Shown one piece after another: positions 8,310-63,878 of a stretch of 64,000 bases of DNA. Position 1 is the stretch's first letter, and every line of letters starts with the position of its first letter. Location: contig CACZJZ010000011.1 in NCBI GenBank assembly GCA_902781655.1, positions 1 through 64,000 on the forward strand. The letters run 5' to 3'. The translations under genes and the position numbers were made by a program. The notes under the pieces are model-generated. The model was not told the DNA's origin and searched no databases. It saw only the letters and a program-made list of their open reading frames with translations. The stretch comes from an uncultured Lachnospiraceae bacterium. Lineage in GTDB: Bacteria > Bacillota > Clostridia > Lachnospirales > Lachnospiraceae.

Positions 8310-8345
8310 ATAACCCTTTCCGCGGTGATATTCCGCCGCACATTT
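8310..8345 (-). repeat. divergent hairpin leader before the response-regulator start
   Basis: Read on the - strand, GCGG, a ~9-base loop with GAATATC, and CCGC form a short hairpin followed by AAAGGGTTAT and the ATG. The loop resembles the AGAATATA of the greA copy. The arms are inverted in order (GCGG first), so this is a weak family member. Confidence 0.4.
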
Positions 8346-12204: not shown

Positions 12205-12242
12205 TGCGATACCCCGTGCCGCGTTTTCTGCGGCACCCGCCA
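12205..12242 (-). repeat. hairpin leader element before pdp
   Basis: On the - strand, GTGCCGC (12236-12230) and GCGGCAC (12222-12216) form a perfect 7-bp stem around a 7-base loop. GGGGTAT follows, and the ATG is at 12204. It occupies essentially the whole gap between the aminotransferase stop and pdp, and it aligns without gaps to the copies at 30175-30209 and 23371-23400. Confidence 0.85.
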
Positions 12243-19502: not shown

Positions 19503-19556
19503 CACCCGCGCGGATGTCGCAGAATATACCGCAGAATATACGACACGGAGTATAGT
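19503..19556 (+). repeat. hairpin leader element before greA, with internal 12-base duplication
   Basis: TGTCG (19515-19519) pairs with CGACA (19541-19545). The pair T-A replaces the C-G found in other copies, a compensatory change. The 12 bases CGCAGAATATAC occur twice in tandem (19518-19529, 19530-19541); without one copy the element aligns base for base, 36 nt including the ATG, to the one before the kinase at 30210. GGAGTAT then precedes the ATG at 19557. Confidence 0.8.
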
Positions 19557-23359: not shown

Positions 23360-23400
23360 GCATTCTCCCGCGAATGCCGCGCAGAATGCGGCGCGGGATA
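23360..23400 (+). repeat. hairpin leader element upstream of trmB
   Basis: GCCGC (23376-23380) and GCGGC (23388-23392) close a 7-base loop, followed by GCGGGATAAGG. The left flank CCGGCATTCTCCCGCG also matches the flank of the copy at 30160-30180. Here the element ends 35 bases before the ATG and a second ribosome site (GAGGAGACGAT) is used. Confidence 0.8.
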
Positions 23401-23434
23401 AGGAATCAGAATAGTGAGGTTATGAGGAGACGAT

Positions 23435-26477: not shown

Positions 26478-26496
26478 GGATGCGGCACGGGATATA
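26478..26496 (+). repeat. orphan right half of the hairpin leader element
   Basis: GGATGCGGCACGGGATATA directly follows the carboxypeptidase stop and matches the right arm and tail of the element, but no + strand gene follows. It may be a decayed copy. Confidence 0.4.
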
Positions 26497-28524: not shown

Positions 28525-28556
28525 ACTGATACTCCATACCGCGTCCTCTGCGGCCT
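28525..28556 (-). repeat. hairpin leader element before the patatin-like gene
   Basis: On the - strand, GCCGC (28554-28550) and GCGGT (28542-28538), with a terminal G-U pair, close a 7-base loop. ATGGAGTATCAGT then leads into the ATG. It aligns without gaps to the pdp and 30175 copies. Confidence 0.8.
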
Positions 28557-28827
28557 TTTTTACATTCAGAGAGCAGTGTAACAGCGTTTTCCGGAGAATG
28601 GTAGCGGACAGAATCCGCCTTCTGGGTGAACGGTTCCGCCCATGATTTCCGAAGCGGATTCAGAAAGGGTTTCCGAATCGTTACACAATTTTCATAATTC
28701 TTCACGCCCGGCGCTTTATAATGAAGAAGATGGCAGAGGCGCGGACTATCCGCCCTGCGGGTATTTCATCCGACCGTCAAACCATGCCCGTCAGAAAAAA
28801 CAGATTTTGTCAGGATCAGGAATCATC
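28557..28827. other. intergenic region between the patatin-like and alarmone synthetase genes
   Basis: TATAAT at 28717-28722 is a likely -10 for the alarmone synthetase, with no convincing -35 at the right distance. Several GC-rich partial inverted repeats (GCGGA/TCCGC) lie at 28605-28665. No gene is visible. Confidence 0.45.
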
Positions 28828-30113: not shown

Positions 30114-30159
30114 ACGCATAAAGCGCGGCACCATTGTCCCGTTCCGCGGGAAAGCCCAT

Positions 30160-30209
30160 CCGGGCATTTCCCGCGCGGATGCCGCAAAGAACGCGGCATG
30201 GGGTATGTT
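30160..30209 (+). repeat. hairpin leader element before a histidine kinase (reference copy)
   Basis: GCCGC (30181-30185) and GCGGC (30193-30197) close the 7-base loop AAAGAAC, with flanking AT/AT pairs. GGGGTATGTT leads to the ATG at 30210. The left flank CCGGGCATTTCCCGCGCGG (about 30160-30178) is shared in part with the trmB and greA copies, so the full unit may be about 50 bases. Confidence 0.85.
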
Positions 30210-31580
30210 ATGAACGATCAGACCATCCGGAAACTGAAGAACAAATTCATCCTGTTTTCCACGCTGTCCTTTACCCTCGTCATGGTCTTCATCGCAGGCT
30301 GCATGTATGCAGCCAATGCGTGGGTCACGCACTCCGAGGCACGGCGCGTTCTGGATTTCATCGCGGATAACAACGGCGAGATCCCGGATTATGAGAAGTC
30401 GGAGCTCGATGTCCAGCCGGAAAATATCGAGGAAAAGAGCGGACTCAGCATCAGCAGCGGCAATGGCAGCAGCGAGGTGTCCCGCGCTGCCTCACGCCGC
30501 AGCTTCTATGAACAGTTTTCCAAATCCCTGGAGCAGTTCTTTGCCATCGGTTCCCATTACGCCTCCCCGGAATTCGCCTATTCCACCAGATATTTTGCCG
30601 TCATTTTTAACGCGGACGGCGGCGCGGAGGAGGTCAAGACCGGCCATATCGCGGCCGTAGACCGCAGTCAGGCTGTGGAGCTTGCACGCATCGCCAGAAA
30701 CCGCAGAAAATCTATCGGCCGCTTTGGCGACTATTACTATGAGAACCGTCAGCGGGACGACGGTTCCTCCATCGTCGTGATCCTGGACTGCACGGACAAT
30801 GTCGCCACATCCCGCCGACTGCTCAATCTCTCCCTCATACTGATCGGCACCGGCGTTCTGCTCAGCGGCATCGTGATGCGTCTGATTGCCGGCAGAGTTG
30901 TCCAGAGCGAGGTCCGCAATACAGAAAATCAGAAGGCCTTTATCACCAACGCCAGCCACGAGCTCAAGACCCCGCTCGCCGTTATCAAGGCCAACACGGA
31001 GATCCTGGAAATGATGGGCGGCGAGAGCGAATGGACGCAGTCCACCATGCGCCAGGTTGACCGCATGACCGGTCTTATCCAGAATCTGGTCATGATCACC
31101 CGCGCGCAGGAGCAGGACAACAGACAGGACCGTGTGGAAACTGACATCAGCAAAGCCGTGCGGGAGACCGTCCACACCTTCGCGCCGGTCGCCACACAGG
31201 ACGGCAAAAAGCTGGAGACCGACATTCCGGACGGCCTCTCAATGCTGGCGGAGGAAGGGCAGATCAGGCAGCTGGTCTCCCTTCTCGTCGACAACGCCAT
31301 CAAATACTGCGATGCCGGCGGCACCATCCGGGTCGTACTTTCCCGGAAGGGCCGCAGCGGTTTGCGCCTCGTCGTTTCCAACAACTATGCCGCGGGAAAG
31401 GGTGTCGACTTCTCCAAATTCTTCGAGCGTTTCTATCGGGAGGACAAATCGCACAATCAGGACAAGGGAGGATACGGCATCGGCCTGTCCATCGCCGAGA
31501 ACCTGGTGGACCAGTATCACGGCTCCATCCGCGCGGAGTTCCACGATGGCATCATCTCCTTTATCTGCATACTGTATTAA
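30210..31580 (+). CDS. sensor histidine kinase
   Basis: 456 residues from the ATG at 30210; an in-frame ATG at 30198 lies inside the hairpin and would lack a ribosome site. TM1 (about 14-36), an extracytoplasmic domain with a Ser/Gly-rich patch (about 75-100), and TM2 (about 205-227) precede ITNASHELKTPLAVIK (H250) and the ATPase domain (LLVDNAIKYC, the FFERFYREDKS box, GYGIGLSIAE). The short distance between TM2 and the His helix leaves no room for a full HAMP domain. It pairs with the response regulator upstream and shares its transcript with the alarmone synthetase. Confidence 0.92.
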   Translation: MNDQTIRKLKNKFILFSTLSFTLVMVFIAGCMYAANAWVTHSEARRVLDFIADNNGEIPDYEKSELDVQPENIEEKSGLSISSGNGSSEVSRAASRRSFYEQFSKSLEQFFAIGSHYASPEFAYSTRYFAVIFNADGGAEEVKTGHIAAVDRSQAVELARIARNRRKSIGRFGDYYYENRQRDDGSSIVVILDCTDNVATSRRLLNLSLILIGTGVLLSGIVMRLIAGRVVQSEVRNTENQKAFITNASHELKTPLAVIKANTEILEMMGGESEWTQSTMRQVDRMTGLIQNLVMITRAQEQDNRQDRVETDISKAVRETVHTFAPVATQDGKKLETDIPDGLSMLAEEGQIRQLVSLLVDNAIKYCDAGGTIRVVLSRKGRSGLRLVVSNNYAAGKGVDFSKFFERFYREDKSHNQDKGGYGIGLSIAENLVDQYHGSIRAEFHDGIISFICILY

Positions 31581-56577: not shown

Positions 56578-56611
56578 ACAGATCCCCCCGTGCCGCACAG
56601 GACGCGGCTCT
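56578..56611 (-). repeat. hairpin leader element before yaaA
   Basis: On the - strand, GCCGC (56608-56604) and GCGGC (56596-56592) close a 7-base loop, followed by ACGGGGGGATCTGT and the ATG. Spacing is identical to the copies before pdp and the patatin-like gene, while the loop sequence differs (GTCCTGT). Confidence 0.8.
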
Positions 56612-63813: not shown

Positions 63814-63863
63814 GGCAGGAAATCAGATTCCTATTGCCGGGGAGAACAGGCACTGAGAATCAT

Positions 63864-63878
63864 GCGGCATGGAGGTAT
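63864..63878 (+). repeat. half hairpin leader element before mnmE
   Basis: GCGGCATGGAGGTAT, identical over 15 bases to the - strand sequence at 6134-6148. TGCCG upstream (63836-63840) could pair with CGGCA (63866-63870) over a longer loop. Confidence 0.65.

Follow-up and report, generated by a model that had tools for sequence, protein, structure and literature searches.

A start-codon hairpin of a Lachnospiraceae bacterium as the probable 3' module of a mobile repeat targeting Shine-Dalgarno-like tracts

Hairpins before genes of the window

The stretch of DNA analysed here, the window, comprises 64,000 nucleotides of one contig of an uncultured Lachnospiraceae bacterium (genome G000). A preliminary description had pointed out a recurring hairpin with GCCGC- and GCGGC-type arms and a G-rich, Shine-Dalgarno (SD) tail in front of several genes. 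All six of the elements it had singled out are present and the observation holds, but what had been described is just the 3' module, called D here, of a larger unit, A-B-C-D, that the description had missed. The copies and remnants in the window are listed with their scores in R1, a covariance model built from 35 D copies, and with the state of the same place in a sister species (G006, a fragmented MAG whose best protein matches are about 83-99% identical to G000).

30125..30137, + strand: remnant of module B (3' arm) before the histidine kinase gene, from sequence comparison with other units
30144..30176, + strand: hairpin C, upstream neighbour of the reference D, from the fold of locus L008 and with the architecture of C in the unit alignment
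30177..30206, + strand: module D, reference copy, with stem, 7-nt loop and SD tract GGGGTAT (R1 48.7 bits, E 2.9e-10)
12209..12238, - strand: D copy 4 nt before pdp (ATG 12204), with A-B-C gone (R1 46.7 bits)
28529..28558, - strand: D copy before a gene labelled patatin in the preliminary description (R1 34.0 bits); D conserved in the sister species
23372..23401, + strand: D with a preceding C remnant, upstream of trmB (R1 32.8 bits); near-identical in the sister species
19503..19553, + strand: degenerate D with a long loop before greA (R1 16.2 bits, E about 0.8)
56584..56608, - strand: decayed D before yaaA (S4 domain), a pattern match with 3 mismatches (R1 17.0 bits, E about 0.5)
63862..63878, + strand: 3'-half remnant of D carrying the SD before mnmE (ATG 63881); the sister species has C-D there
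26478..26495, + strand: D remnant downstream of a gene and away from any start; the sister species has a full unit there (L333/L373 alignment)

The reference D is the best R1 match of the genome and ends 3 nt before the ATG at 30210 of an ORF (30210-31577) that matches kinase families below their curated cut-offs. The products of pdp and trmB match the pyrimidine-nucleoside phosphorylase and TrmB families over the cut-off, the greA product lies just under the cut-offs of GreA families, and that of yaaA lies below the curated cut-off of the YaaA family. The name mnmE is taken from the preliminary description, the 40 aa inside the window giving no NCBIfam match, and the patatin label is unconfirmed, with no NCBIfam match for the gene behind that D. 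With most gene names assigned by eye, the downstream genes look unrelated, in agreement with the earlier view that they share no pathway. The copies before greA and yaaA are weak on their own by R1; at the greA start, one contig of the sister species has the same degenerate form and another has C-D, and at yaaA the sister species has a better D with a longer leader. A half copy reported at 63864 and an orphan at 26478 are borne out as remnants by the longer forms in the sister species; weak or half copies proposed at 8310 and 21130 gained no support.

When up to 3 mismatches are allowed, the D pattern, GCCGC-N3-R-N3-GCGGC-RYGGNRTA, has 10 matches in the window, against 0.88 expected, and 0 of 100 shuffles reach 10; with up to 2 mismatches it is matched 73 times genome-wide, against 7 for a reversed-pattern control. 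R1 gives 128 matches in the genome at E of at most 10. Among the best 72 of these 128 (22.3 bits or more), a start codon opening an ORF of 50 codons, or 40 where the stretch ended, lies 3-5 nt past the model end in 40, and no such start codon occurs within 45 nt in 10. At random window positions, a 50-codon ORF starts 3-5 nt downstream in 4.7% of cases and with ATG alone in 2.2%. Finer points of the preliminary description hold in part. The arms, given as 5 bp (7 bp at pdp), form a stem of up to 7 bp in the R1 alignment; the loop of exactly 7 nt is that of the reference copy but not of the degenerate greA copy; and a start codon soon after the stem is found in the 40 copies just counted but not at trmB, whose ATG lies 33 nt downstream of D with another SD (GAGGAG).

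Within the genome, the D stem has 10 cells in which both sides of a pair are changed, a value reached by 1 of 500 shuffles. These changes sit in only 2 of 7 pairs, which 344 of 500 shuffles reach and which is thus not above shuffles; both are outer pairs, each broken in 8 of 35 copies. D is often found alone inside operons, directly after a stop codon, a position that would also suit a strong ribosome site evolved by convergence instead of copied as sequence. However, R1 holds ~37 bits (1.234 bits x 30), against about 16 bits that by our own estimate would be needed for ~70 sites in a 2.76-Mb genome, and several D-only or remnant copies have full or longer units at the orthologous places of the sister species, which makes convergence very improbable.

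The longer unit and its distribution

The unit consists of near-perfect hairpins A, B and C, often followed by D, and then an SD tract a few bases before a start codon. A-B-C spans ~100 nt and the tail to the start codon roughly 10-55 nt; the unit is without a transposase gene and present in many copies per genome. In intact copies, hairpin A is a 15-bp stem closed by a YGAT loop, and its arms often read GTTTGAAAG...CTTTCAAAC. Hairpin B reads CATTGGTGCC GCT GGCACCAATG in G000 and is followed by a short linker, and hairpin C, with one bulged base, is followed by D with its SD tract. A type-2 unit is without D and ends in TTTTGCCTCAGC-GGGGTAT. The folds of good units are near-perfect hairpins, one of them reaching -65 kcal/mol over 100 nt. 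The G+C fractions of the repeat are 0.44-0.65, mostly 0.5 or more. Tandem stacks of units and internal deletions are common. No terminal inverted repeats are seen by eye when the 5' end (GTTTGAAAG or GTGTGAAAAATC) is compared with the 3' end (GGGGTATA or GGAATGGAGGTTA).

Single loci add their own variants. At L293 (G028:C64:32073-32472), the C hairpin of the unit runs into a PabA/TrpG-like ORF with an in-frame ATG apparently in the C loop, and the gene start may by eye lie inside the element. The dapF-like start of both G000 and G006 (L253/L248) has a large extra stem within hairpin A, common to both species, and a type-2 unit stacked behind D. At a prkC-like start (L221 versus L025), both A arms differ together between the sister species at the same locus, which exceeds expectation for single substitutions; template-switch repair may have caused this, or another unit may have taken the place of the first. 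In front of a gene resembling glycerate kinase (G000:C3:184760; L191 in G006), the unit closely follows a tRNA gene, and the stretch between tRNA and D differs between the two genomes.

We followed the repeat through the genus and family with R1, with R2, a covariance model of A-B-C, and with R3, a third model built from sequences of the other genera, whose copy counts are all likely lower bounds because just a limited number of candidates is scored in each genome. R1 finds 68 copies in G000 and 77 (G006), 47 (G031), 39, 31, 15, 13 (G039) and 5 in seven of 60 other same-genus genomes, with 0 or 1 in the remaining 53; the 5 matches, in G002, probably arise by chance, as R2 has no match in that genome. 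The R2 counts are 65 in G006, 24 in G000, 52, 45, 33, 24 and 10 in others and 4 in G052, and 0 in four other genomes. Of 120 genomes that each stand for a different genus of the window's family, R2 matches 8, G000 included. R3 finds 43, 28, 17 and 17 copies in four other genera and 3, 2 and 1 in three more, and none in three genomes without R2 matches. In the other genera, the stem sequences are largely different and the A-B-C layout is unchanged.

A scan of named genomes for the exact pattern returned 12 contigs, ten of them from the Lachnospiraceae MAGs RUG554, RUG285 and UBA2734, one from Lachnospiraceae bacterium NK3A20 and a single one, apparently a chance match, from an Oscillospiraceae MAG. 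The exact D pattern has no match in viral contigs, and one G006 unit compared with 50,697 phage and 72,556 plasmid records found no match that would point to such carriers. In contigs C82, C83, C88, C104, C110 and C118 of G028, A hairpins are no more than about 100 nt away from the end of the contig, so the repeat seems to break short-read assemblies and copy numbers are probably underestimated. The repeat is an element of rumen-type bacteria with a patchy distribution.

Filled and empty sites and the flanking SD tracts

Flanks of 19 G006 units served as queries against G000, and 17 loci were aligned. Six of the 17 are empty in G000 and filled in G006 (L326, L327, L329, L330, L335 and L343, where G000 carries a 17-nt duplication in place of the unit); together with rfbA they make seven filled/empty pairs. 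At nine others, G000 keeps a remnant, D or C-D (by eye), one locus has one unit versus two in G006, and one (L332) is ambiguous. Presence and absence at orthologous genes differ between the two species. At rfbA, G000 reads GGCACGAGGGGAAAGATATG, and G006 has a full unit between GAGGGGAAAG and GTATG. Precise loss at single sites may stand in place of insertion, the comparison genome G006 being a fragmented MAG; at rfbA, G028 is without the unit as well, which makes an insertion on the G006 branch the simpler account of that locus.

Comparison with the empty sites places the unit directly 3' of an SD-like tract, with another SD-like tract behind it. In one such pair, G000 reads GACGAGAGGA-AACTATGG and G006 reads GACGAGAGGAAG-[unit]-CAGGAGTGT-AACTATGG. 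The unit at L327 follows GGAGAGGT, which is not the SD of the gene, so the target seems to be the motif and not initiation. Further differences concern parts of units or their number. B-C or A-B-C is lost in one of the two species at der, oppF, etfB and L058, a kinase gene shows a similar unit difference between genomes, and one insertion lies at the end of a response regulator gene. At L338 and L341, G000 has D alone and G006 a further unit behind the SD of D, a state that by eye recurs at a glycosyltransferase-like gene in G028. Two G006 contigs differ at one start region by the unit and more. Within the G006 MAG, contigs C193/C137 (L186, L187; greA) and C205/C38 (L249, L250; Dabb-like) give two versions per start region with different element states, which may reflect a strain mixture or duplication.

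The same arrangement appears in the flanks at large. Flanks were taken from 87 R2 units, mainly the best-scoring per genome, and 68 remained once 19 stacked units were left out. An SD core, defined as GGAG, AGGA or GAGG within 16 nt left of A, is present in 41 of the 68 units of the window genus, against 16, 15 and 9 in the next upstream windows, and its distance peaks at 1-10 nt from A; the other 27 are without such a core, some of them with weaker G-rich tracts. Four other genera have the left core in 23 of their 26 units (controls 4, 4 and 4), and three further genera have it in 5 of 7 (controls 1, 0 and 1). On the right, an SD and a start codon follow within 60 nt in all 26 units of the four other genera; the corresponding counts are 6 of 7 in the three further genera and 54 of 80 in the window genus, where 26 of 80 are without them. 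In the typical case, the unit is thus flanked by an old SD-like tract on its left and by a new SD on its right. The new one is usually the unit's own GGGGTATA-like end in the window genus, and the right-end consensus in the other genera is GGAATGGAGGTTA.

A target-site duplication in the window genus was considered and rejected. Its signal over 81 units (0 of 2000 shuffles) vanishes once stacked units are removed, leaving no repeat between left and right beyond chance (53 units, 3.89 versus 3.91 nt, 1176 of 2000 shuffles as high), with L355 as the one clear case among the 53. Exact sharing between left and right in the other genera is above shuffled pairings over 26 units (0 of 2000) and weaker over the 22 units without possible stacks (5.95 versus 5.23, 30 of 2000 shuffles as high), five of which have exact repeats of 8-11 nt, such as AACGGAGAATA and GAGGCATA. 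The SD borne by the unit is the main route to the new ribosome site, and duplication of the target SD may occur as well.

Movement, RNA function and known repeats

Dispersed copies, filled and empty sites, SD-like tracts on the left and right, stacking, truncation and covarying stems are all observed. We consider it probable (about 0.8) that D forms the 3' end of a non-autonomous mobile repeat, which uses SD-like tracts as its targets and brings an SD with it. In the course of events that we infer, the unit would move actively, served by an enzyme acting in trans, and would insert directly 3' of GGAG/GAGG SD-like tracts. Its 3' end, GGGGTATA-like in the window genus and GGAATGGAGGTTA-like elsewhere, would then become the SD before the start codon, from which the gene would be translated; in a few cases the right-hand SD exactly repeats the left one. 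Because the unit brings an SD, the gene would stay translatable and insertions in the leaders of needed genes would survive, and because the new SD is itself a target, units would stack. Later deletions would trim A-B-C and leave D with the SD that the gene now needs, presumably the reason why D remains, and such deletions would account for the copies first noticed in the window. A mobile MITE- or REP-like unit with its own ribosome site had been one of the options offered for the hairpin, and it is well supported by the filled and empty sites, the two-sided SD, the stacking and the patchy distribution; that the element lands on SD-like tracts had escaped the preliminary description.

REP/BIME elements with RAYT and the IS200/IS605 (Y1) elements are hairpin units that insert in one orientation beside a short fixed motif and form mosaics. 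The unit resembles them in its hairpins and in its oriented insertion next to a short motif, but differs in that the link to a Y1 enzyme fails. In the sole transposase family searched (PF01797), no member occurs in three of seven carriers (G006, G031 and G039), G000 has a 56-aa fragment and several non-carriers have one, so mobilisation by Y1/RAYT was rejected, as presence does not follow copy number. Four equally scoring Y1 transposase copies (166 aa), of which three are close to the end of a contig, lie on contigs C25, C31, C52 and C63 of G043. The orphan D at L003 was also considered as a possible autonomous copy and set aside; its neighbours are by eye arabinofuranosidase-like and phosphoesterase-like, and no transposase was noticed among the ORFs.

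Copies could instead spread by host recombination, gene conversion or template switching, with the SDs as microhomology and no dedicated transposition machinery. This would fit the lack of a transposase, in PF01797, that tracks the copies, the frequency of tandem stacks and deletions, and the insertion at the kinase gene, which falls at a match to the unit-unit junction TATAAGTTTGAA. On the other hand, new sites such as L330 and L329 share just a short purine tract with the unit, and the near-perfect stems kept across genera despite differing sequences suggest that a folded form is used in movement; we therefore regard spread by host processes as unlikely, though with some weight. The mobile reading may be extended, tentatively and at somewhat less than even odds, to a new mobile class, present in as many as eight genera of a single family (Lachnospiraceae, to judge from the named members), that targets SDs, passes through a folded ssRNA or ssDNA intermediate and brings a ribosome site with each insertion. 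The folded form would comprise the three hairpins and a B-loop pairing next to the SD, and leaders would be filled and restacked at little cost.

The unit might alternatively be a cis-regulatory leader RNA, in which the B loop pairs just 5' of the SD and D or a pseudoknot gates the SD for an unlinked regulon, with a protein, a ligand or temperature as trigger. In its favour is the strong covariation of the A-B-C stems: across 19 units of G000 and relatives, both sides are changed in 22 of 40 pairs and 83 cells, values that 0 of 500 shuffles reach, and slid structures give 20 cells or fewer. In 12 units of four other genera, moreover, the B loop keeps a 9-bp pairing with the bases immediately 5' of the SD in 95.4% of cells. 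Both sides are changed in 3 of its 9 pairs, a value that 8 of 500 shuffles attain, and in 4 cells, which 3 of 500 attain; this pairing may serve movement, or have an RNA role there. The constant position at start codons would also suit a leader.

Against a leader RNA stands the wear of the stems. In the resident stems of 96 units, 89.8% of 3692 cells are Watson-Crick, and 99 G-U stand against 134 A-C cells (binomial p 0.026, toward A-C, over rows that are related and not independent); the D hairpin alone has 5 G-U and 14 A-C. The excess of G-U over A-C that would mark a sense RNA is thus absent from the resident copies. This speaks for a mobile element in decay more than for a conserved RNA switch, and it fits structures that would be well paired at insertion and then decay. 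Many units have lost large internal parts, with losses that differ from one sister species to the other, and presence and absence differ at orthologous genes. Among 28 type-2 units of the window genus, 19 keep at least 4 complementary bases between the B loop and the pre-SD TCAGC, but none of the 28 has a both-side change, and the pairing is only suggestive. Rfam has 0 matches in the window at gathering score, and on sets of 14 and 7 element-bearing loci it gives only tRNA, SRP RNA and matches below gathering scores. On this balance a leader RNA is improbable. An RNA-binding protein or a thermosensor, both raised in the preliminary description, likewise find little support in unrelated genes, in G-U not above A-C and in deletions that leave the SD side only, with the covarying pre-SD pairing of other genera as the point in their favour. 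The regulon reading was set aside because the downstream genes look unrelated and the stem decay is not RNA-like, and so was a switch by alternative B-D pairing, the arms being complementary in G000 but not in those inspected in G043.

The mobile unit also invites comparison with repeats known from other bacteria. Neisseria REP2 repeats have a ribosome site at the 3' end, near the start codon. By this definition, the unit appears to work most like REP2 in ending with a ribosome site, which lies a few bases before a start in 40 of 72 D copies, 54 of 80 units and all 26 units of four other genera. CREN is an element of about 150 bp directly before nhba in Neisseria, and REP2 stands in the reference list of the same paper, by title, as a repeat tied to many genes (PMC9031163). 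Like both, the unit lies right before a gene, a likeness drawn from descriptions; unlike the unit, both are linked there to contact-induced expression, and the unit's stacking, SD-flanked insertion, covariation over several hairpins and filled/empty pairs are not known to us from them. The pneumococcal BOX repeats, compared here by description, are likewise modular small interspersed repeats, intergenic, with a variable number of modules (boxA-boxB-boxC) and stem-loops if transcribed; unlike the unit, they are over-represented between convergent genes (PMC3049150). In the available portion of that paper, Shine-Dalgarno is named once, for BOX ORFs without one, and no SD insertion is described. 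TAACTGA repeats of Beggiatoaceae are abundant, oriented to and placed at start codons and overlap the ribosome site, but in the accessible parts of the source they are heptamer tandem repeats with little SD character, whereas the unit consists of SD-carrying hairpins (PMC4679880).

Bacterial MITEs (Correia, ERIC, YPAL and others) are short, non-coding, base-paired and non-autonomous, and empty and filled sites are known for YPAL (PMC2229807). The unit is like them a short, non-coding repeat without a transposase gene and with filled and empty sites; MITEs usually have terminal inverted repeats, TA ends and an A+T-rich sequence, whereas the unit has no terminal inverted repeat seen and a G+C mostly of 0.5 or more. 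A MITE in the wide sense, with no terminal inverted repeat by eye, is the simplest account. In the main text of a MITE review, 'Ribosome', 'Shine' and 'start codon' do not occur (PMC10969869), and a full-text literature search, with subscription papers mostly outside its coverage, found no paper describing the unit by title or abstract.

One would expect small repeats that insert at the start of a gene to impair translation. Here, the SD is apparently the landing site and another SD is left behind, so that the leaders of core genes can be occupied and units can stack in them, among them those of pdp and trmB in the window and greA, rfbA, der, miaA and dapF (named by eye). Such a repeat would give a selfish element a route to supply new translation starts and long structured leaders, and the mobile reading explains a set of ribosome-site hairpins that otherwise resembles a regulon. 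A mobilising enzyme, if found, could provide a tool that inserts cargo at ribosome sites, and the sister species offer a natural experiment in swapped ribosome sites.
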